Assembly: GCA_036488875.1 (NCBI GenBank)
Contig: DASXGW010000002.1
Span: 248,001-312,000, forward strand
From: Candidatus Baltobacteraceae bacterium
GTDB taxonomy: Bacteria; Vulcanimicrobiota; Vulcanimicrobiia; Vulcanimicrobiales; Vulcanimicrobiaceae
DNA length: 64,000 nt
Direction: 5' to 3'
In this document: piece after piece, positions 34,637-57,885 of the stretch
Layout: every line of letters begins with the position of its first letter
Position numbering within the stretch: the first letter of the stretch is position 1
Notes under the pieces: model-generated
Database searches by the model: none
The model's input: the letters and a program-made list of their open reading frames with translations, nothing else
Told to the model about the DNA's origin: nothing
Position numbers and translations under genes: made by a program

Positions 34637-35989
34637 CTATTGATCGTCGACGGGCTCGTTTGATATCGGTTCGCGTTCAAAATACGCCTGCGGAAGCTTG
34701 GCCGCGATCGGAACGAACTTACGGGGAGCTTGATGAAAGTCGAAGCAATCCGCAATGCTCGTAGCGCGCGCGTCGGTCGCGTACAACGAGCCGAGCGAAA
34801 ACGTGTTCTCGACGAACCTCAAGATACTCCCGAACTCGTACTGCGTGTGCGAGACGTAGCCTTTCTTCGCATACGGCGAGATGACGAGCATCGGCACGCG
34901 AAACCCTAACCCTTGATAATCGAGCTGCGGCGGCGGGACGTGGTCGAACAGTCCGCCCCAATCGTCCCATACGACGATAATCGCCGTTGAGTTCCAATGC
35001 GGACCTTCACCGATGGCGTCGACGACGCGGGCGACCCACTGCGGGCCGGTATCGGGACCTCCGCCAGGGTGATCGGAGTCGTGCACTTGCGGAACGACCC
35101 ACGTGACCGACGGCAGCATGCCGCGGCGCGCAACCGCGAAGACGCCGCTCGGCGGCGAGATGACGTTGTCTTTCCATTCGTCTGAATACCGTACGGCATC
35201 GATCGCGTCGAACGCATTCCAAAGCGCGCCTCCCGCACAGCAAACGTTCGGCGTGTAATATCTCCACGTCAGTCCCGCGCGGTCGATGAGATTCGCCAGC
35301 GTCTTCCACTTGAAGCACGGGAATGGCCCGGCGCCCCGTTCGACCTCACGCTTGACGTTAATGAGATTCGTTGCCGTGTGCGCGGAGGCGTCGCAACCCC
35401 ATGGAGGGTTCGAGGGAATCGGATCGTCGATCACGCTTGCCCACTTGCCGATCGCCGTTCCCCCGGCAACGAGGTCCTGATGGGCCGTGAAACTGCCGCT
35501 GGACTGCGTCTGGAACATGTGATCGGCCAGCACGTATTGTTTGGCCATCGCCCAATACGGCTGTATCTGCTCGGGGTCGACGTATCGATAGACGTATTGG
35601 CCGATCTGGCCACGATTGCTGCCCGCGTTGGCATTCGCGAAACCGTCCATTTTGCCGCCGTCGTACTCTTTGACGAATGTCGCGTGGACGTGAGCCACAT
35701 CACGGGTGAGTAAATCGCCTTTGACCAGTGGCACCGTAACCACGCCCGTGGCGGTCTTCATCTTCCCGTGCGTGGCGCCGTCGGCACCCCGAAACGTCGC
35801 GAAGAAGTCGTCGAAGCTGCGATTCTCTTGGATCAGAATCACGATATGCTTGATCGGCGACGGATTTGGGCTTGCGACCGTGGGAAGCACCGGTCCGTCC
35901 GCGTTTGTCCCGGTCACCGAGCGCGCGCAGCCGGCAACGATCAGTGCGGCGCAGACGGCGAGTGAGCTAGCCAGCGTTTTCACCATCAC
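34637..35989 (-). CDS. Phospholipase C / acid phosphatase-like lipoprotein (alkaline phosphatase fold)
   Basis: The 450-residue product has a lipoprotein signal (LIVAGCARS) and the PF04185 phosphoesterase pattern: HIVILIQENRSFDDFFATF with the metal-binding Asn/Asp, TGPQWVARVVDAIG, and IVVWDDWGGLFDHVPPP with further metal ligands. Relatives are phospholipase C and AcpA-type acid phosphatases. It should hydrolyse phosphate esters at the cell surface. A close paralogue with the same order lies at 36356-37699. Confidence 0.85.
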   Translation of the reverse strand: MMVKTLASSLAVCAALIVAGCARSVTGTNADGPVLPTVASPNPSPIKHIVILIQENRSFDDFFATFRGADGATHGKMKTATGVVTVPLVKGDLLTRDVAHVHATFVKEYDGGKMDGFANANAGSNRGQIGQYVYRYVDPEQIQPYWAMAKQYVLADHMFQTQSSGSFTAHQDLVAGGTAIGKWASVIDDPIPSNPPWGCDASAHTATNLINVKREVERGAGPFPCFKWKTLANLIDRAGLTWRYYTPNVCCAGGALWNAFDAIDAVRYSDEWKDNVISPPSGVFAVARRGMLPSVTWVVPQVHDSDHPGGGPDTGPQWVARVVDAIGEGPHWNSTAIIVVWDDWGGLFDHVPPPQLDYQGLGFRVPMLVISPYAKKGYVSHTQYEFGSILRFVENTFSLGSLYATDARATSIADCFDFHQAPRKFVPIAAKLPQAYFEREPISNEPVDDQ

Positions 35990-36355: not shown

Positions 36356-37699
36356 TTACTCTGTGTCGACGGGCTCGGTCGAAATCGGTTCGTGCAGAAA
36401 GAACTCGAGCGACTGCGGAGCCGGAATCGTCTTGAAGGCGCGCGGCTTTTGCGAGAAGTTGAAGACGTCGTCGATGCTGCTGACGCCGACATCGGTCGTG
36501 TTGAGATGTCCCAAGCCCCAGTTGTCCTCGACGAACCGTAGGATGCTTCCGAACTCGTACTGCGTGTGCGAGACGTAGCTCTTACGCGCGTAAGGCGAGA
36601 TCACCAGCATCGGAACCCTGAAGCCCAAACCGTCGTAGTACTTTTGCGGTGGAGGGACGTGATCGAACTGGCCGCCCCAATCATCCCAGACGACGATTAT
36701 CGCCGTGGATTTCCAGTACGGCGAATGCCCGATCGCGTTGGCGACTTGGGCAACCCATGCGGGTCCGTGATCTGGCGGTGAGCCGGGGTGATCCGAGTTG
36801 CCCACCTTAGGAATGACCCACGATACGGCCGGCAGCTGCCCCTTCGTTATGTCGGAGAACACGTTGGTTTCCGGCATCGAAACGTTGGTGCCCCATTCCG
36901 GGCCGTACCGAACCGCATGAATGGCCTCGAAGGCATTCCAGATTGGGCCGCCGTCGCAGCAGATCGGCTCGACGTAGTACTTCCACGACACGCTTTTAGC
37001 ATCGAGCAAATCTCGAAGCGTGGGCCAGGTGAAGCACGGGAACGGTCCAACTTTCGTAACGACGTTTTTCGTCTTCTTGTAAATCAACGCTGTTGTGGTA
37101 GCCGGGTCCTTCGCGTCGCAGCCTGCGGGATCCGACGACGTGAGATCGATGACGGCGGCACTGGCATTGAGGTGGGTGTTGCCTCGAATCAGATCCTGGT
37201 GCGCCGTGAAGCTTCCGCTGCTCTGCGTTTGAAATAAATGATCGGCCAGCACGTATTGCTGCGCCAGCGTCCAATACGGCTTGATTTGGCTTGGATCCAC
37301 GTACGTATATGCGTTCGTTCCGGTCTTTCCGCAGCCGATGCAGGCAAAGTTTACCAGGCCAAAGCCGTCCATCTTCTTGCCGTCATATTCGGTCAGGAAG
37401 GCAGCGTGAAGGTGGTTGACGTCGCGCGACACCAACGGGCCCTTGGTCAAGGGAACCGTAACGACGCCGCTAGCAGTCTTCATCTTCCCGTGCGTCGCGC
37501 CGTCCGCGCCCGGATACGTCGCAAAGAGGTTGTCGAAGCTGCGATTCTCTTGAATGAGAATCACGACGTGCTGGATTGGCGAAGCGGTGGACCGATTGAC
37601 GTGCGTCGCGTTCGGGTGCGGCGGAAGCGGCATACCCGAAGATCCCCCACAGCCGGCGAGGGCCGCCAAAACCAAACCGAACAACGCGTGACGCTTCAT
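36356..37699 (-). CDS. Phospholipase C / acid phosphatase-like lipoprotein, paralogue
   Basis: The 447-residue product starts at the ATG at 37699 with lipoprotein signal LAALAGCGG. It has HVVILIQENRSFDNLFATY, ILADHLFQTQ-like and AHQDLIRGN segments, and IVVWDDWGGQFDHVPPP, matching the gene at 34637-35989 along its length. It differs mainly in the middle section with two CxxC-like turns (FACIGCGKTG). It is expected to be a surface phosphoesterase. The open frame upstream of 37699 runs through the tRNA-Ala gene and is not coding. Confidence 0.85.
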   Translation of the reverse strand: MKRHALFGLVLAALAGCGGSSGMPLPPHPNATHVNRSTASPIQHVVILIQENRSFDNLFATYPGADGATHGKMKTASGVVTVPLTKGPLVSRDVNHLHAAFLTEYDGKKMDGFGLVNFACIGCGKTGTNAYTYVDPSQIKPYWTLAQQYVLADHLFQTQSSGSFTAHQDLIRGNTHLNASAAVIDLTSSDPAGCDAKDPATTTALIYKKTKNVVTKVGPFPCFTWPTLRDLLDAKSVSWKYYVEPICCDGGPIWNAFEAIHAVRYGPEWGTNVSMPETNVFSDITKGQLPAVSWVIPKVGNSDHPGSPPDHGPAWVAQVANAIGHSPYWKSTAIIVVWDDWGGQFDHVPPPQKYYDGLGFRVPMLVISPYARKSYVSHTQYEFGSILRFVEDNWGLGHLNTTDVGVSSIDDVFNFSQKPRAFKTIPAPQSLEFFLHEPISTEPVDTE

Positions 37700-37727
37700 C
37701 GGTAACTCGATCGCTCCCAAAACGACG

Positions 37728-37803
37728 TGGTGGAGATGAGGGGACTCGAACCCCTGACCTTCGCCTTGCAAAGGCGTTGCTCTACCAACTGAGCTACATC
37801 CCC
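37728..37803 (-). tRNA. tRNA-Ala (anticodon TGC)
   Basis: On the minus strand the acceptor stem GGGGATG/CATCTCC (one G-T pair), anticodon loop TTTGCAA and T-arm with GTTCGAGTC are clear, and CCA is encoded. The first four bases are also part of a 13-bp inverted repeat (37800-37828). Confidence 0.96.
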
Positions 37804-37828
37804 AAAAAATGCTGCGCATTTTTTGGGG
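37800..37828. repeat. Perfect 13-bp inverted repeat at the 5' end of tRNA-Ala
   Basis: CCCCAAAAAATGC and GCATTTTTTGGGG are separated by three bases. The repeat includes the first four nucleotides of the mature tRNA, so a precursor could form a leader hairpin that competes with the acceptor stem. Confidence 0.8.
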
Positions 37829-37978
37829 GCCCCTTGCGCTTGTAACAGGCACTCCGCGCTTCGCGCTTCGCGCCCCCCACTCACGTGGGGCCCCCAAACC
37901 GCTGCAATCACTGCGACAGCGAAGGCGAGCGCCCTGCAAGGGTTCGCGACGCTGGGCGTGAAGAGAGCCGACCGCGCC

Positions 37979-38054
37979 GGGGGCATAGCTCAGTTGGTAG
38001 AGCATTACGCTGGCAGCGTAAGGGTCAGGAGTTCGAGTCTCCTTGCCTCCACCA
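37979..38054 (+). tRNA. tRNA-Ala (anticodon GGC)
   Basis: The acceptor stem GGGGGCA/TGCCTCC, D-arm TAGCTCAGTTGGTAGAGC, anticodon stem TTACG/CGTAA with loop CTGGCAG (anticodon GGC) and an encoded CCA are all present. It is divergent from tRNA-Ala(TGC), 175 bases away. That gap holds only GC-rich low-complexity sequence and I see no gene in it. Confidence 0.96.
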
Positions 38055-49841: not shown

Positions 49842-51365
49842 GTGACCGAATCGAGCGGCGACCGCCTGAACGACGCGTTGCGGCGCACGAGCGCGCATCT
49901 GTGTGCCGCCGGCGGCGTTCGCGCCGAGTACGTAACCGCCGTGACGGGCGATCGTGACGAACGCGTCGCCGGATTTTCCATGACCGTCGCGCGCGCGCAC
50001 GACGGGTTGCTCGCGGCGCTGCTGGAGGACTTCAACGCTCCGCACGAGGCCTCTGCAGCCGTTCGCGACGCCAATCCAAGCGCCGCGCGCGCATTTTCCG
50101 TCTCCGTTTGCGGCACTGGGCTGCGCTACGCGCTTCTTCTCGGCGACGACGGGTGGCGATGGGGCGACGGGCATTGGCAGCAATTCTCCCTACGGCGCGG
50201 CTTTCTCCCGACGCCGAACGGCGGGAGCGAACTGCTCGACGTCTGCCGCGGATCGTCGCGCCGAATCGTGGATGCATTGCTCCAGCACCGCCTCGTGCAG
50301 ATGGGTTCGCCGTACTGGCTCCAATGCAGCGACGGACGAGTCGAATGCGTCGCGGTCGAGTTTCCCTGGTATCCCGATCCGGCATCGCTAACGACGCTGG
50401 CTTCGCTTTCGCGCAGCGCGCCCGTCACCGCCATCGAACTCGATTTGACTCAAGACCACGTGCGGTTCTTTACTCGCCTTTCGGCGACCCTAGAGCACGT
50501 TCCCAACGAACTCGCCGGCTTCCAGACCGCCGTCGCGCGCAGCGCCGAGGTGGAGCGCGAGCGCTTCTTGCGCGAGGTTCCCGCGCTCGATCCGGCGCTG
50601 CCGCAAACCGTTTCGGCGCCGCCGGAAATCGCTGCCTTCGACGACGCCTCCTTTGAATCGTGGCGCCCGGTTCTTGGCGAGGGGCTGCACTTTCACTTCG
50701 GTATTTTCGATCCAAGCGTGACCGACCCCGACGACGCGGCGATGACGGCTGCGCTGCGGCGTTCGATTACGGACCTCTTCCCGTTCGTGCCCGAGGGCAG
50801 CACGCTGTACGACGTGGGCTGCGGATGGGGCGGTCCGCTCGGTATTTGGACGAAAGAGCGCCGCTGCCGCGCTCTGGGTCTAACGCCGAGCGCAACGCAA
50901 TATGCGTATATCGCTTCGCACGGCCTAGCGGTTCGTTATGGCGACGCGGAACACACGATGCCGCCTGGACCGTTCGATTGCGCGGTCTTTCTGGAGTCGC
51001 TCGAGTATCTAACGCACAAGGAAGAGCTCTTGCGCACGATGCACGCCTTCGTAAAACGCGTCGTCATGCGCGTCAACTGCGCCGAGTTTCCAATTCCCTC
51101 GACCGGACTGCAAATGTCGGCGCCGTCGAAAGACGAATTACGCGACCTGCTCGAGGTCACCGGCTGGCGCATCGTGCACTGGGCCGATCGCCGAGGCGAA
51201 ACGTTGCCCACAGCTACGGTGTGGAAACGCCGGATGCAGGCGCTGCCGCCGGGTCGCGACGAGCATCTCGACAAACTGCGGCGTTGGGCCGACTTCGTAA
51301 CGTCAAATCAAGACATCTTCGTGCGGATCAGCCCGCACATCGAGGTCGTCGCCGACCGCGATTAG
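49842..51365 (+). CDS. Two-domain protein with C-terminal class I SAM methyltransferase
   Basis: The 507-residue product starts at a GTG. Residues from about 310 form a class I methyltransferase: the SAM loop LYDVGCGWGGPLGIW, ALGLTPSATQYAYI, and FDCAVFLESLEYLTHKEELL as motif II. This recalls cyclopropane-synthase-like and small-molecule methyltransferases. The N-terminal 290 residues contain WYPDPASLTTLASL and LTQDHVRFFTRLSAT and match nothing I know. Its 3' end overlaps the dlt-like operon's last gene by four bases in convergent orientation. Its substrate could be the same envelope polymer, but that is a guess. Confidence 0.75.
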   Translation: MTESSGDRLNDALRRTSAHLCAAGGVRAEYVTAVTGDRDERVAGFSMTVARAHDGLLAALLEDFNAPHEASAAVRDANPSAARAFSVSVCGTGLRYALLLGDDGWRWGDGHWQQFSLRRGFLPTPNGGSELLDVCRGSSRRIVDALLQHRLVQMGSPYWLQCSDGRVECVAVEFPWYPDPASLTTLASLSRSAPVTAIELDLTQDHVRFFTRLSATLEHVPNELAGFQTAVARSAEVERERFLREVPALDPALPQTVSAPPEIAAFDDASFESWRPVLGEGLHFHFGIFDPSVTDPDDAAMTAALRRSITDLFPFVPEGSTLYDVGCGWGGPLGIWTKERRCRALGLTPSATQYAYIASHGLAVRYGDAEHTMPPGPFDCAVFLESLEYLTHKEELLRTMHAFVKRVVMRVNCAEFPIPSTGLQMSAPSKDELRDLLEVTGWRIVHWADRRGETLPTATVWKRRMQALPPGRDEHLDKLRRWADFVTSNQDIFVRISPHIEVVADRD

Positions 51366-52375
51366 CGCGCCGGCGGTGAAGGGATGCGCAGTGCGGGAAT
51401 GTCGTTCGCAAGCGTCGCCGCCAAGAGCTGCTGGCCTCGTTGCGTCAGGTGAGTATTGTCGATAAAGTCCACTTGAGGAAAGGCCCGGTCGAGATCGACC
51501 ACGCGGATTCCGCGGCTTTCCAGAATCTTCACCAGATAATCGGCGTTGCGAGCGTAGGCGGGAACGTCGATAAACTCGTGAACCAGCGCGTGATTGGTAG
51601 GAGTGAGAAACGCGATCGCCGGGATCCGCTGCTCGCGCAACGCGTCGGCTACCGCTTCGAGATACCGCACCCCCACGTTGCGTTCGTCCAGCGGTGCCAA
51701 ATCGTATGTGCCGAGAAAATCCTCGGCCACCGGCCGTTCTTTGGGAACGGCATCGGCGTCGCCCGAGAGAGCGTCGCGCAGATCCGCTCGCGCACCGTAC
51801 ACGAGCCAAGCCGAAGCCATCGCAGCGCCTAACCGCGCGAGGACGCCTTCTCCGCCATCGGCCACATCCAACGTCGAACGATCCGCCGGGGTCATTAACG
51901 GTCCGGCAAGCGCGGCCAGAGCGGGAGCGAGCGTTTTATACGACTGATCGCCGGGACTAAACGACGGCTGGTTGATTTCCAAAACGACGAGCTTTGGATG
52001 GACGTGAAACTTCGCGAAGAGCAGCGTGAGCGCGTAATAGTTCGGCGGACTCCCCGCCTTGAACGACAGGTTCACGCACGAGCAACCGCCCTTCGCCAAT
52101 AGGGCGACGGCATTGCCGTCTGCAGGAACGCCGTAGCCCCACAGTGCCGAGTCGCCCATGAAGACGACTTGCGGAGGCTGCTTTGCGATTGCGTCGAGCT
52201 TGTGCTCCAGCGCTGTGGCGGAGAAATCCGATGCAAAGCGGCCGCTGCTCGACAGGTACGCGGAAACCGCGGCGTTTTCGGCAACGGTGAGCAGCGCGAT
52301 CGTTGCGACGATAACCGCCGCAACGGCCAGCCTATTGCGCGGCCAAAGCGACTCGGTCGACTTTTCCGTTGGCAT
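51362..52375 (-). CDS. SGNH/GDSL-type membrane-anchored protein (DltD/AlgJ-like role)
   Basis: The 337-residue protein has an N-terminal membrane anchor (VAAVIVATIALLTVAENAAV) and an SGNH fold: FMGDSALWGYG with Ser76, then LVVLEINQPSF, and DNTHLTQRGQQLL with Asp306 and His309. Such proteins pair with MBOAT acyltransferases (DltD with DltB, AlgJ/AlgX with AlgI) and hand the acyl group to the acceptor polymer outside the membrane. Its start lies 44 bases inside the adenylating-enzyme gene, so it belongs to the same operon. Confidence 0.82.
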   Translation of the reverse strand: MPTEKSTESLWPRNRLAVAAVIVATIALLTVAENAAVSAYLSSSGRFASDFSATALEHKLDAIAKQPPQVVFMGDSALWGYGVPADGNAVALLAKGGCSCVNLSFKAGSPPNYYALTLLFAKFHVHPKLVVLEINQPSFSPGDQSYKTLAPALAALAGPLMTPADRSTLDVADGGEGVLARLGAAMASAWLVYGARADLRDALSGDADAVPKERPVAEDFLGTYDLAPLDERNVGVRYLEAVADALREQRIPAIAFLTPTNHALVHEFIDVPAYARNADYLVKILESRGIRVVDLDRAFPQVDFIDNTHLTQRGQQLLAATLANDIPALRIPSPPAR

Positions 52376-53882
52376 TCTTCGGGAGGTGCTTGCGAAGCTC
52401 GAAGTTCTGCGGAATCATGTACGCCGGCAACGTCTCGCGCAGCCGCGCGCGAAGCTCCGCTTTCGTCAGCGCATCGTCGGGCGCGACGTAGGCCACGATG
52501 ATTTTCATACCACTGCCGTCTGCTTTGTGAACGACCGCCGACTGCACGACCCCGTCGAGCCGATTGATAGCCGCTTCGATCTCCTCGAGCTCGATGCGGT
52601 ATCCCATGTGCTTGATCTGGTTGTCAGCGCGCCCCACGAAAACAAGGGTGCGGCCGTCTTGGCCTAACCGGACGAGGTCACCCGTCTTATATGCGCGCTC
52701 CGGCCAGCGCGCGTTGACCGGATTGGCGACGAACGCTCCTTGAGTTCGCGCGAAGTCGTTAATGTATCCCAAACCCACTTGAGGTCCCATGACGTACAGC
52801 TCGCCGATCTCGCCGGGTCCGACTTCACGGCCGTCGTCAAGCACGACTGCAGAACAGTTCTCGGCGATGTGTCCCAGCGGCACGGTCCCTTCGAGATCCT
52901 CTAAATCGCCGGCTTCGATGTCCCACGCCGAACAGAAACAGGTGCACTCCGTCGGTCCATAGGCGTTGATCAACTTGCTGCGGTGACCGAACATCGCGAA
53001 CAACTTGCGAAGCTCGGGTTTGGGATACACCTCGCCGCAGAAAATGAACTGGCGGATCGCGGGCAGCCGATCCGGCGCGAGGAGATTCAACGTCGTCAAA
53101 TAGATCACCAGCGACGGCACCGAGCCCCAGCTGGTGCACTGCGACCGTTCCACCTGTTCGAGCACCAGGCTGGGATTAGCGAGCGTTTCGCGCGCGATTG
53201 GAACGACCGCGGCTCCATTGAGCAGCGCGCCGTAGACGTCGCTCACGGAAAAGTCGAAATGCAGCGGATTGAGATTCGTGAGAAAGTCGCCGGGCGCAAA
53301 TCCAAAGCGCATCCCGCACCAACTCGCAAAACTCAACAGGTTGCCGTGCGTGACGATTGCGCCCTTAGGCACGCCGGTCGAACCCGACGTAAACATGACG
53401 TACGCCGGATCGCTGCCCGTTACCGCCGCGCACGTGGCGGGCTCGCCGGCCGGTGCCGCTTCTATAGCACGCGCAAACGCCGGATCGTCGAACGCGAAGG
53501 TGGGAATGCCGGTGTGGGCCGCCGCATCGCGCACGGAGTCCGGAACGGTCTGCGCAACGACGAACGCCGGCGCCGCGGTCGACAAGATGTGCTCGAGCCT
53601 GGCTGCGGGATTGAGGTCGTCGAGGTTCAAGTAGGCAGCGCCAACCTTAAGTGCGCCGAGCATTGCCGCGAAACAATCCAGCGTTTTGGTATGCACGATC
53701 CCCATCACGTCGCCGCGCCGAAGCCCGCGACGGATAAGCTCCGATGCGAAGCGGTTGACCCGATCGTCGAGCTCGGCGTACGAGACCTCACGCCCGTCGG
53801 GGAAACGTAACGCCGGGCGCCGCGCATGGTCGCGGGCCACCGCCCCAAACTCGAGCCCGACGTTATACGAATACGGCTTCAT
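52332..53882 (-). CDS. Amino-acid adenylating enzyme, DltA-like
   Basis: The 516-residue stand-alone adenylation enzyme shows all core motifs: A3 VMFTSGSTGVPKG (162-174), HFDFSVSDVYGAL (208-220) with the Asp that grips the alpha-amino group, A5 NAYGPTECT, A7 YKTGDLV, A8 GRADNQIKHMGYRIELEEIE and A10 PKNANGKVDR with Lys507. It would activate an amino acid with ATP and load it on a separate carrier. Similarity to DltA (FIFCGEVYPKPELRKLF) suggests alanine or another small amino acid. The carrier gene and the MBOAT gene lie just upstream. Confidence 0.88.
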   Translation of the reverse strand: MKPYSYNVGLEFGAVARDHARRPALRFPDGREVSYAELDDRVNRFASELIRRGLRRGDVMGIVHTKTLDCFAAMLGALKVGAAYLNLDDLNPAARLEHILSTAAPAFVVAQTVPDSVRDAAAHTGIPTFAFDDPAFARAIEAAPAGEPATCAAVTGSDPAYVMFTSGSTGVPKGAIVTHGNLLSFASWCGMRFGFAPGDFLTNLNPLHFDFSVSDVYGALLNGAAVVPIARETLANPSLVLEQVERSQCTSWGSVPSLVIYLTTLNLLAPDRLPAIRQFIFCGEVYPKPELRKLFAMFGHRSKLINAYGPTECTCFCSAWDIEAGDLEDLEGTVPLGHIAENCSAVVLDDGREVGPGEIGELYVMGPQVGLGYINDFARTQGAFVANPVNARWPERAYKTGDLVRLGQDGRTLVFVGRADNQIKHMGYRIELEEIEAAINRLDGVVQSAVVHKADGSGMKIIVAYVAPDDALTKAELRARLRETLPAYMIPQNFELRKHLPKNANGKVDRVALAAQ

Positions 53883-53887
53883 GCTAT

Positions 53888-55309
53888 TTAGAAAGCTTTA
53901 TACGCGATCTGCGGAGCCGGAGCGTTAAAGATGACCGCAACCGTTACCACGACCACCGCTACGGCCGCGTACCCGGCCGCCCGCAGATACCCTGCCGGCG
54001 TCTTCGCCAAGATTCGTCCGGCGGCGGTGGCTATCGCTATCGCAGGCCAGTACAGTAACGCAAAACCGAGTATGACCGCCGCCACGGCAAGCCCAATCGC
54101 GGGTGCTCCCGCCACGCGAACGAGATCGCCCAGTTGCGTCCAACTCGCCCAAAAGAACACCAGCACCAGGCACAGCCAGAAAAACGTCAAGCCGCTCGAA
54201 ACGGCCGCGTATGCCGGATGCGCGCAGAGCGCCTGGTAGCGGACGCGGCCCATCCAACGGGTCATCGCCAGCTGGTACAACTTGTTTCCGCTCATACCCG
54301 CGCCGTTGACGAAGCCAAAGATGACGAACATCCACGTCTGCCCGTGCCAAACGCCAACGAGGAAGAACGTGACGAAGTACGCCAATACCCCGAGCGTCGG
54401 CGCGGCGGCAGCCGACGGAAACCGGCGCATCATCGCCAGCAGCATCGGCGAGTAGACGTACGTCTTGAACCAGTTCGCAAGCGACATGTGCCATCGACCC
54501 CAGAATTCGATAAATCCTCGAGCCACAAACGGGACGTTGAAGTTCTCCGGCAGTTCCATGCCCAAGAATCTGGCCGCTCCGATGACCGCGTCGGTATAAC
54601 CGGAGATGTTGGCGTAAATGTACGCGGGATAGATTGCTAGGATCAGACCGGTGTCCAGCACGCGGGCCGGCAATGCCAATGCAGAGCCTGACCACTGCAG
54701 CGCGTGTTGGTGCGCGAACAGAAGGGCGGGCGATGCGACCATCACTTTGAACAGTCCCATCACGATGCGTTCGGTCGCGCGGCCGGCAACCTCGGCGCTC
54801 AAGCGCGCCGGACGCTCCTCATCTCGCCTAAACGGCGGATACAGCTGAATCGGACCCGCAACGAAGGTCGTGAAGTTCAGCGTGTAGTTTGCGTACGAAA
54901 CGAGGCTCACCCGCGCGGGCAGCGCGTTCTGATAGGCATCCACCACGAGGCTCACGACGCGAAAGAACGCGTACGAGAGCCCGACCGTCAGGTACACGTT
55001 GGCCAGAAGCGCCGTGGACGGAACGAAGGCGTAGCGCTTGAGCCAGCATAGCCCGAACGTCAATCCTACGAGAATCGAGTAAAACACCCAACGGTTCTTA
55101 TATCGCTCGACGAATCGCATCGCGCCGAATCCGGCGATCAAGAAGACGGCAAACGGAACGACGGAAACCGGCCCGGTCGCAAACGTGGCAAAGAACGCCA
55201 CGTTGGCGACCAGGAGGACGCATTGGCGCCACGCCGGTCCGAAGGACGGGGCGAGAAGCACTGCAACGCACGCGCAAAAGACCAGAAACTCGAGGGACGG
55301 AACGCTCAC
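53888..55309 (-). CDS. MBOAT family O-acyltransferase, DltB-like
   Basis: The 473-residue polytopic membrane protein has the MBOAT signature: ISGYTDAVIGAARFLG, FIEFWGRWHMSLANWFKTYV (His274) and the catalytic histidine in LVGVWHGQTWMF (His322). MBOAT proteins move an acyl or aminoacyl group from a carrier on the inside to a polymer on the outside. It starts at a GTG overlapping the carrier gene stop (GTGA) and ends five bases before the adenylating enzyme, so all are one operon. Confidence 0.92.
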   Translation of the reverse strand: MSVPSLEFLVFCACVAVLLAPSFGPAWRQCVLLVANVAFFATFATGPVSVVPFAVFLIAGFGAMRFVERYKNRWVFYSILVGLTFGLCWLKRYAFVPSTALLANVYLTVGLSYAFFRVVSLVVDAYQNALPARVSLVSYANYTLNFTTFVAGPIQLYPPFRRDEERPARLSAEVAGRATERIVMGLFKVMVASPALLFAHQHALQWSGSALALPARVLDTGLILAIYPAYIYANISGYTDAVIGAARFLGMELPENFNVPFVARGFIEFWGRWHMSLANWFKTYVYSPMLLAMMRRFPSAAAAPTLGVLAYFVTFFLVGVWHGQTWMFVIFGFVNGAGMSGNKLYQLAMTRWMGRVRYQALCAHPAYAAVSSGLTFFWLCLVLVFFWASWTQLGDLVRVAGAPAIGLAVAAVILGFALLYWPAIAIATAAGRILAKTPAGYLRAAGYAAVAVVVVTVAVIFNAPAPQIAYKAF

Positions 55310-55554
55310 TGGAGCTTCGATTGAATGAGCGCCGCTAGGTCGCCCACGTTATTAAGCGAGGTTATTTGCGCGGCTGCAAAATCGACGGAGAACGTTTTCT
55401 CCACCGTCAGGATGAGCCGCAGCTGTGCGAAACTGTCCCAACCGGCGACTTGATCGGCCATGAGTTCCGGGGTTGCCGTGATCGTTTCGTCGTCAAAGAT
55501 CTCGCGAAGCATCTTCGTCAGCCTCCGGTAAATCTCGTCCGTTTCCATCGGCAT
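55306..55554 (-). CDS. Acyl/aminoacyl carrier protein, DltC-like
   Basis: The 82-residue acidic protein carries the phosphopantetheine serine in VAGWDSFAQLRLIL (Ser41). WDS is the form common in DltC-like and polyketide-type carriers, unlike the ADSLD of the AcpP encoded at 23207. It would carry the amino acid activated by the DltA-like enzyme to the MBOAT protein. Its ATG overlaps the upstream stop (TAATG). Confidence 0.9.
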   Translation of the reverse strand: MPMETDEIYRRLTKMLREIFDDETITATPELMADQVAGWDSFAQLRLILTVEKTFSVDFAAAQITSLNNVGDLAALIQSKLQ

Positions 55555-57368
55555 TAGGGCTCTCTCCAGGGTTTCGTCTTCAGCAGCTCGTTGAGAATCG
55601 TTTGTGCGTATACCGCGGCGCCCTGAACCGACAAGTGCGAGTCGCGCGCTCCGAAGAGTGCCGGATGAGTGGGAAGCAGCTCCTCGCGCGCAAAGATCGG
55701 GAACGCGTTAACCACGGGAACGCCTGCGGCCGCTGCCGCTTCGCGCAGAAGTTCGCCGGAGCGTTCGTACTCGGTTGGGGGACCGGGTGCCGGCGAATAA
55801 CCCGGGGGTAGGAAAATACCTGTGTACGCGGATTCCGAGGGAGACACTTCCCACGGCAGGGGATCGAGCGCCACGAGAAACGGAACGCGATTCTTACTCA
55901 ACGTCGTCGAGATCGTTCGTAACGCGTCGGTGACCTGCGGTTGCCACTGCGCCGCGTAGGGATCGACGCTTTCGGTAATCGGCCGGTTTATCGTCATCGA
56001 AACGTGTCCGGTATTCAGTTGCAGAATGACCATGTCGGCTAAACCGGTCGCGAGATATTGATCGATAAAGTCTCGCGTGCCGTTCATATCGGCTAACACT
56101 TGCCGAGGATAAACGCGCGGCGGTTTGGGAAGTCCAAGCGCGCGCCAGTTCCGGCTCAAACCTTGCTCGACGATCCCCGAAATCGATTGATCCCACTGCT
56201 GATTGCTCGAAGTATCGGAGTTTCCGAGAAAGAAAATCCGGTAATATTTCGTGTCGGCTGCGAGTTCCGACGGCGCCACCTGATACCGGAAGTCGATCCC
56301 GGAGACGGTGCGGATACGGCGGTTTCCGGTGTCCGAAAAGACGAACGCGCCGCTTGCCGTCCGCACTAGACCCATCGGCTGGTCGACGCGCGCGACGTCG
56401 CTGCCGCCATCGCGGAACTCGCCGGCGCTAAATCCGGCATTCTCGGTCGCGGGGCCGGCCGCGACGTTCTCCCCCGACCCGGTGAAAAAACGGATGGAGT
56501 TGGTGGCGATGTCGGTGTAGACGACCTTGTCGTCGTCGACCGCGGCGATGGCAAATGGATATCCGAACGTTCGCGTTCCAGCGACGTACGCTCCGCTGGG
56601 ATCGTCGTCCCACACACCGGTTTTATAAAACCGGGTTACGGCCGAACGCGTCAAGTCGTACACCAGCATCCCGCCCCGCGCTGCGACGAAGAGCTGTGGG
56701 GACGTGCATGCATCGCAGACGCTCAAGCCGGTAACGTCACGCAGCGATTTGTCGTCGGGTGGCGCAGCGGTAAGCGTGGTTACGCTTCCGTCCGGCGCGA
56801 CGCGCCGAACGCCGACGCTCGTGTCCCCGACGTAAAGGATGCCGTGAGTATCGAACGCAAGGGCCCGGGGCTGCGCAAAGCGCGCGGCCGTCAACGTTCC
56901 GTCTTGCGAACCGGCTTCGCCGCAACGCCCCGCGTACGTTGAAACGATGCCGCCGCGAATGAAACGTAGACAATGGTTTGCGGTGTCCGCGACGACGATC
57001 GCGCCCGACGGCGTGACGGCCACGGCTGAGGGCTGGTTGAATCGCGCAGACTGAGCCGGGCCGTCGGCGAATCCGCCCGGCACCCATAATCCGCTAGCGT
57101 CGATTCCACCGGAGCCCGCGACGGTCGACACGATGCCGCTGGAGGAGACTCTTCGTACGCGTTGTCCGGCGGCATCGGCAACGTAGAGATCGCCGCTCGG
57201 CGCGAGCGCGAGCCCTTCGGGCATAAGGAAACTCGCCGTCTTTGCCGGGCCGTCTTCCAAGCCGGGGAGACCCGAGCCGGCAAGTGTAGTTACCTCGGCG
57301 CTTCGCGCGGGCAAAGAGGAAAGCGCCGCCAGAATAGTCAGGCAAGCGACGATTGAGCTTCGCTGCAT
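55554..57368 (-). CDS. Secreted NHL beta-propeller fused to SGNH-like domain
   Basis: The 604-residue product (ATG at 57368; another at 57392) has a signal peptide (SIVACLTILAALSSLPARSA). NHL-type blades follow to about residue 365: GLALAPSGDLYVADAAGQRV, AVAVTPSGAIVVADTANHCL and LVRTASGAFVFSDTGNRRI. The C-terminal 230 residues start IFFLGNSDTSSNQQW, which fits an SGNH block I (Ser384), and end with GARDSHLSVQGAAVYAQTI, a block-V-like Asp-x-His. AlgX-type acetyltransferases use a similar D-x-H plus Ser set. It opens the dlt-like operon and is likely its outside partner or acceptor-binding subunit. Confidence 0.78.
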   Translation of the reverse strand: MQRSSIVACLTILAALSSLPARSAEVTTLAGSGLPGLEDGPAKTASFLMPEGLALAPSGDLYVADAAGQRVRRVSSSGIVSTVAGSGGIDASGLWVPGGFADGPAQSARFNQPSAVAVTPSGAIVVADTANHCLRFIRGGIVSTYAGRCGEAGSQDGTLTAARFAQPRALAFDTHGILYVGDTSVGVRRVAPDGSVTTLTAAPPDDKSLRDVTGLSVCDACTSPQLFVAARGGMLVYDLTRSAVTRFYKTGVWDDDPSGAYVAGTRTFGYPFAIAAVDDDKVVYTDIATNSIRFFTGSGENVAAGPATENAGFSAGEFRDGGSDVARVDQPMGLVRTASGAFVFSDTGNRRIRTVSGIDFRYQVAPSELAADTKYYRIFFLGNSDTSSNQQWDQSISGIVEQGLSRNWRALGLPKPPRVYPRQVLADMNGTRDFIDQYLATGLADMVILQLNTGHVSMTINRPITESVDPYAAQWQPQVTDALRTISTTLSKNRVPFLVALDPLPWEVSPSESAYTGIFLPPGYSPAPGPPTEYERSGELLREAAAAAGVPVVNAFPIFAREELLPTHPALFGARDSHLSVQGAAVYAQTILNELLKTKPWREP

Positions 57369-57411: not shown

Positions 57412-57885
57412 ATGCTCCGGTCGCTACAATTGTTACCACTGGCCTTCTACCTGGCATTTTCGCTGCCGGCCGCAGCAGCCCCGGATTCGTCCATAAAGGG
57501 CGAAGTCATCGTCGCAAAAACGCAAGGCAATGCAATCGTCCTTTGGGATATTACGCAGTCGGTTGCAGCGCTCGTCGCGACGCCGAGCTCACACGACGAG
57601 AAAATCCGAGACGTTGAACTTCAAGCGTCGGAGATTCTGCTCGCGCATCTCGCCGAGATGTCGGCTGCGTCGACGGTTGAAGTTCGCGCGCTCTATCAAC
57701 GCAACGGCGACGTAAGTCCCATCTATAAGACCGCTACCTTCGCCGGCGTCGAGCGCCTCCTGACGATAACCGCAACGTATGCAGCCGCGGTAAAAAACAA
57801 AGCCGCCTGGGAGAAGCAGCTCGCCGCCGGCGCGATGCCTTCGGGCATCACTGTAGAGGTCACAGGCGACCTGCCTCCGCGATAG
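57412..57885 (+). CDS. Hypothetical small secreted protein
   Basis: The 157-residue product has a signal peptide (LLPLAFYLAFSLPAAAAP) and a mixed helix/strand domain with EVIVAKTQGNAIVLWDITQS and AAYAAAVKNK-like helices. I do not recognise a family. It is divergent from the dlt-like operon with a 43-base gap, so its promoter overlaps the operon promoter and the two may be co-regulated. Confidence 0.6.
   Translation: MLRSLQLLPLAFYLAFSLPAAAAPDSSIKGEVIVAKTQGNAIVLWDITQSVAALVATPSSHDEKIRDVELQASEILLAHLAEMSAASTVEVRALYQRNGDVSPIYKTATFAGVERLLTITATYAAAVKNKAAWEKQLAAGAMPSGITVEVTGDLPPR

Follow-up and report, generated by a model that had tools for sequence, protein, structure and literature searches.

Five minus-strand genes in a 64,000-nucleotide stretch of DNA from a Candidatus Baltobacteraceae bacterium (this whole stretch is called the window) probably encode a carrier-fed machine for envelope acylation. 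With a probability of roughly 0.6, an amino acid is loaded onto a carrier protein and passed via Tyr470 of an MBOAT protein and a DltD-like SGNH protein to an envelope polysaccharide, and the operon is derived from a version that used an FkbH enzyme. The gene set, motifs, folds, orthologue context and exchange of the loading enzyme were read from sequences and models; we infer the chemistry, the identity of the amino acid and the acceptor.

The genes occupy 51362-57368. They encode a secreted NHL-propeller/SGNH protein (55554-57368 with an ATG start, or from 57392 if GTG is used), a carrier protein (55306-55554), an MBOAT protein (53888-55309, GTG start), a stand-alone amino-acid adenylating enzyme (52332-53882) and a membrane-anchored SGNH protein, the putative final acyltransferase (51362-52375). 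The NHL/SGNH and carrier genes overlap by 1 nt, the carrier and MBOAT genes by 4 nt, and the adenylating enzyme (A domain) and membrane SGNH genes by 44 nt; a 5-nt gap separates the MBOAT and A-domain genes. A single transcription unit is therefore likely. The open reading frames and family scans agree with a preliminary description of this DNA, which had placed five overlapping minus-strand genes here. A divergent plus-strand gene next to the NHL/SGNH gene (57412-57885) encodes a secreted 157-aa protein without known family. The genome has two phosphopantetheinyl-transferase genes. Elsewhere in the window, two adjoining genes of a phosphoesterase family (PF04185) were found at 34637-35989 and 36356-38005.

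The carrier protein matched PF00550, and its predicted phosphopantetheine site is Ser41 in a WDS motif, as the preliminary description had recognised. Of 31 aligned rows, 30 keep this serine, and the one that does not is a misread ORF. The best solved-structure relative of the carrier was 2lml. By description it can be likened to the specialised GmACP3-like carrier, which is likewise stand-alone and proposed to serve an envelope polysaccharide; Ramelot 2011, as cited in PMC4847154, gives it a putative role in LPS.

The adenylating enzyme matched PF00501 and PF13193, and its score against TIGR01733 was 347.5 bits, above the cut-off of 317.4. Asp210 and Lys507, the equivalents of Asp235 and Lys517 in GrsA numbering, are both present. 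These features uphold the earlier assignment to an amino-acid type of enzyme with an amine-gripping Asp, and an amino acid is the likely activated substrate. The ten-residue specificity code is DFSGICACFK, whereas DltA enzymes aligned with it have DLMIVCTVMK and DLTVVVGVAK, different at most positions; the pocket residues S, G, C, A and C are small and not DltA-like. The code is also unlike those of the nearest relatives (DNFFVGVCIK type). Even within the genus the substrate may vary: the genus-mate G001 has DNFYVGVCLK where the window genome (G000) has DFSGICACFK. Naming the substrate from the code was dropped, as only codes of the same alignment were available for comparison.

A paralogue of the A domain (58%) with the code DNFFVGVCIK is located elsewhere in the window genome (G000:C2:22686-24224; L158:8657-10234), and others were found at L160-L163. 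Such loci resemble sugar-biosynthesis loci, and the copies in G077, G082 and G025 adjoin genes for a carrier, an SDR protein and a hexapeptide transferase. From this context, the paralogous A domain may aminoacylate a nucleotide sugar.

The MBOAT protein matched PF03062 above the cut-off, and extra C-terminal hydrophobic helices precede its end, the hexapeptide IAYKAF (residues 468-473; codons at 53891-53908, minus strand), which contains the putative acyl-shuttle residue Tyr470. His322, His274, Tyr470 and Phe473 are invariant in all nine orthologues, and their C-terminal motif is [I/V]xYxxF, with I or V at the first position within the family clade. In Dlt systems, the acyl group goes from the MBOAT to the Tyr of the C-terminal FXYXXF hexapeptide of DltX, and in PatA this hexapeptide is the MBOAT's own C-terminus, where its Tyr is a proven acyl acceptor (PMC12148441). 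We found no separate DltX microprotein: among ORFs of at least 25 aa between 48 and 62 kb, only the MBOAT ends in the motif. The classical DltX had been described as absent; its function instead appears to be fused to the MBOAT C-terminus as IAYKAF, which matches the shuttle hexapeptide of DltX and PatA. According to the 2025 literature, MBOAT-SGNH systems other than Dlt have no carrier, evidently because acyl-CoA is used, and no DltX-like microprotein (PMC12148441). With a fused hexapeptide and carrier-fed loading, the window therefore joins the Dlt layout with that of Pat and Alg. The genome's other MBOAT (G000:C13:341728-342990; L051) lies in a 1079-codon frame ending in FIYFKF and branches with MBOATs that have no nearby carrier.

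In the MBOAT tree, the window protein is nested inside an FkbH-type clade (support 97-100) and outside the DltB clade, and carrier-linked MBOATs including DltB stand apart from most carrier-less ones. This was a quick SH-aLRT tree without bootstrap and with several long branches, and its deep placements are unsure. Carrier genes were found near 32 of 42 MBOATs of this type and near 5 of 61 others (Fisher p 7e-13, a descriptive value inflated by kinship and by the class being defined with the query).

No Pfam family matched the membrane SGNH protein, and a search of solved structures with its profile gave no convincing relative. Its structural model (pLDDT 86.9) was closest among solved structures to E. 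faecalis DltD (6o93; Z 16.6 over 278 residues, rmsd 4.0), whereas generic SGNH enzymes aligned with it over only about 170 residues. As modelled, the protein has a DltD fold; structure prediction of the SGNH proteins had been proposed earlier as a check. Without exception, 13 relatives keep Ser76 of the GDS motif, Asp306 and His309.

The NHL protein matched PF01436, and its modelled propeller matched teneurin-like and NHL domains with Z scores above 30. Its C-terminal domain had no Pfam match but aligned with the membrane SGNH protein by hhalign (E 5.8e-7), and the triad S392/D584/H586 is kept in 13, 12 and 13 of 15 relatives, respectively. Because a fold search with the model listed only propellers, the SGNH half is assigned as a remote SGNH domain from the hhalign match and the conservation of the triad. 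The propeller/SGNH fusion of the preliminary description stands but is not special to this operon: NHL/SGNH and 157-aa genes are also found with other MBOAT systems of these bacteria. Three tandem NHL/SGNH genes were observed at L034:9748-14947 and at L037:605-5885, and the catalytic Ser or His is missing from some of the relatives' copies (L036, L037). The secreted 157-aa family (57412-57885 and relatives) is without known relative and tied to these MBOAT loci; a search against solved structures gave no convincing match.

Orthologues of the window MBOAT were found in ten genomes of the same family, including the window genome. Every intact orthologous locus of the family combines carrier, MBOAT and SGNH genes, and the SGNH is DltD-like in each of the eight intact loci outside the genus; judged from gene context, the recurrence of this trio exceeds chance. 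FkbH is encoded in seven of the eight full orthologous loci (about 280-300 bits against TIGR01686, cut-off 147), and in those seven genomes it is the only FkbH gene. The eighth genome, G025, has no FkbH; a fatty acyl-AMP ligase, possibly a third kind of loader, is encoded beside the MBOAT on the opposite strand (L037:6393-8135). In G073, a genus-mate of G025, FkbH sits between the carrier and the MBOAT.

The locus has lost FkbH in the window genus, where G000 carries the A domain instead. In G001, which has no FkbH, one contig has an A domain overlapping the SGNH gene (L159), and another has an intact carrier overlapping the MBOAT (L042). Scattering of the genes in relatives had been named as a finding against a joint function; the two pairs of G001 are indeed split and have different neighbours, but each pair is itself kept. 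A distant FkbH-type gene elsewhere in G000 (C8:241115-242062), without adjacent MBOAT or carrier, could in principle load the window carrier in trans. In other loci the machine handles a glyceryl-type group, and the loader for amino acids appears to have been a late substitution. The comparison of loci suggests that bacteria swap the loading enzyme (for glycerate, fatty acid or amino acid) on one conserved membrane machine.

Sets of FkbH, carrier and MBOAT with a fused hexapeptide were also found in Pseudomonas, Caulobacteraceae, Rhodospirillales, Burkholderiaceae, Bradyrhizobium, Sulfitobacter, Omnitrophota and others; that of the Tistrella mobilis plasmid pTM1 has an MBOAT ending in FIYAGF. 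A minority of loci (L071, L072, L076, L079) have a DltB-sized MBOAT and a small separate ORF with the motif. Independent sets of A domain, carrier and fused motif seem to be present, on thin evidence, in a Bacteroidetes contig (L098; VIYFNF) and an alphaproteobacterium (L077; AYYQRF). Dlt may be one branch of a large class of carrier-fed envelope acylation systems, a proposal whose odds we put slightly above even. In this class the carrier, MBOAT and SGNH would stay while the loader is exchanged (FkbH for a glyceryl or derived three-carbon acid, a fatty acyl-AMP ligase or an A domain), the shuttle Tyr would be carried by either the MBOAT or a DltX-like microprotein irrespective of the donor, and the window would have been caught after an exchange of glyceryl for amino acid.

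As in Dlt, the window set comprises an adenylating enzyme, a carrier, an MBOAT and a DltD-fold SGNH protein, with a carrier-fed donor and a Tyr hexapeptide shuttle. Unlike the system for D-alanylation of teichoic acid, its shuttle peptide is on the MBOAT and not on a DltX microprotein, its A-domain code is not DltA-like, its MBOAT branches with FkbH-type loci, its host is diderm, and extra NHL/SGNH and 157-aa proteins are present. The set falls outside Dlt proper by DltA, DltB and DltX yet probably works like Dlt. PatA/PatB and AlgI/AlgJ/AlgX likewise have an MBOAT with two extra helices and a C-terminal FxYxxF and a paired SGNH protein, but their donor is acetyl-CoA and they lack a carrier and a loading enzyme (PMC12148441), both of which the window has. 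FkbH loading of glyceryl onto carriers is known from polyketides and peptides such as suomilide; the orthologous MBOAT loci have FkbH above the cut-off together with a carrier, and in the window FkbH has been replaced. In the literature searched, we found no paper on FkbH with an MBOAT in envelope acylation, two matches concerning aeruginosin-type peptides, and no description of the broader loader-exchange class. The window MBOAT belongs to the FkbH-associated clade and has an adjacent carrier, and its locus has an A domain in place of FkbH; by these comparisons the set is better described as an amino-acid variant of the FkbH/carrier/MBOAT/SGNH class. The Dlt-like reading of the preliminary description holds for the carrier, A domain, MBOAT and SGNH as one set, but the closest systems are FkbH/carrier/MBOAT loci and not dlt.

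In the proposed mechanism, the A domain would activate an amino acid with ATP and load it onto the Ser41-phosphopantetheine of the carrier. At the cytoplasmic face, the carrier would hand the aminoacyl group to the MBOAT, which would transfer it via His322 to its own Tyr470 at the outer face. The DltD-like SGNH protein would receive it on Ser76 and esterify a hydroxyl group of an envelope polysaccharide with it. The proposal for each chemical step is drawn from homologous Dlt and Pat systems, whose chemistry is proven. The secreted NHL/SGNH and 157-aa proteins probably act at or on the acceptor, and the operon would descend from the FkbH (glyceryl-loading) version by exchange of the loader.

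It is unlikely that this is an ordinary dlt operon with a fused DltX that, like Bordetella dra and Dickeya dlt, attaches D-alanine to an envelope polymer through an ester. The DltD fold of the membrane SGNH protein would suit such an operon, and Gram-negative dlt loci have been published (PMC3544676; PMC4448142, also cited for Bordetella dra). These loci (dra; dltBAC/dltD) are likewise aminoacylation sets in bacteria without teichoic acids, but published descriptions set them apart as D-alanine systems with DltA-type enzymes. The A domain does match the DltA models NF003417 and TIGR01734 (302 and 296.4 bits) and the MBOAT the DltB model TIGR04091 (169.4 bits), but all three scores are far under the cut-offs of 476, 559.85 and 375. 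The specificity code and the grouping of the MBOAT with FkbH loci also argue against this reading, and D-alanine is not indicated as the substrate.

A machine that esterifies an amine-less acyl group, with the A domain activating a hydroxy, aryl or fatty acid, is quite doubtful: the close relatives of the MBOAT are all linked to FkbH or a fatty acyl-AMP ligase, as such a machine would suggest, but the Asp and Lys at positions 235 and 517 and the TIGR01733 score point to an amino acid. Least probable of all, the A domain and carrier would serve another pathway, such as aminoacylation of a nucleotide sugar, and the MBOAT/SGNH pair would use acetyl-CoA. The carrier gene overlaps the MBOAT gene here and adjoins it wherever an orthologous locus of the family is intact, and MBOATs linked to carriers group in a clade of their own, separate from most carrier-less ones; these observations outweigh the A-domain paralogues of G000, G077, G082 and G025, which lie among sugar and hexapeptide-transferase genes with no MBOAT, the last three with a carrier.

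The closest named relatives of the MBOAT are from Candidatus Eremiobacterota/Vulcanimicrobiota, a phylum with a cultured member that has an outer membrane (PMC9758169). An Omp85 gene is present in the window genome, in which LptD gave no match. Since the host phylum is diderm, teichoic acid is an unlikely acceptor, consistent with the earlier expectation of a diderm host and a different acceptor. Sugar-nucleotide-type genes were absent among the scanned window genes and were seen by ORF inspection beside the locus in some genera (L034, L035).

The modular class as a whole is a more interesting claim than the window operon. The loci found break the published rule (PMC12148441) both ways, with a carrier outside Dlt and a DltX-like microprotein without a carrier. 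They predict that many Gram-negative bacteria have new ester groups (glycerate-like or amino acid) on their surface polysaccharides, and such groups would alter surface charge and polymer properties; cultured organisms with such loci include Tistrella mobilis, Bradyrhizobium and Pseudomonas sp. T1-3-2.

A second MBOAT system was observed in the same bacteria (L045:5720-5914, L047:9809-9985, and also L046, L048, L049 and L050). It consists of a DltB-sized MBOAT and a DltX-like microprotein ending in FIYTDF or FFYGNF, accompanied by the same DltD-like SGNH protein and often by NHL/SGNH and 157-aa genes; no carrier lies within 9 kb. By its predicted gene content, it is a hybrid opposite to that of the window. 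In G138, of the same phylum, a DltA-like A domain is followed by a 740-aa GDSL-MBOAT fusion protein (L043:332-4131).
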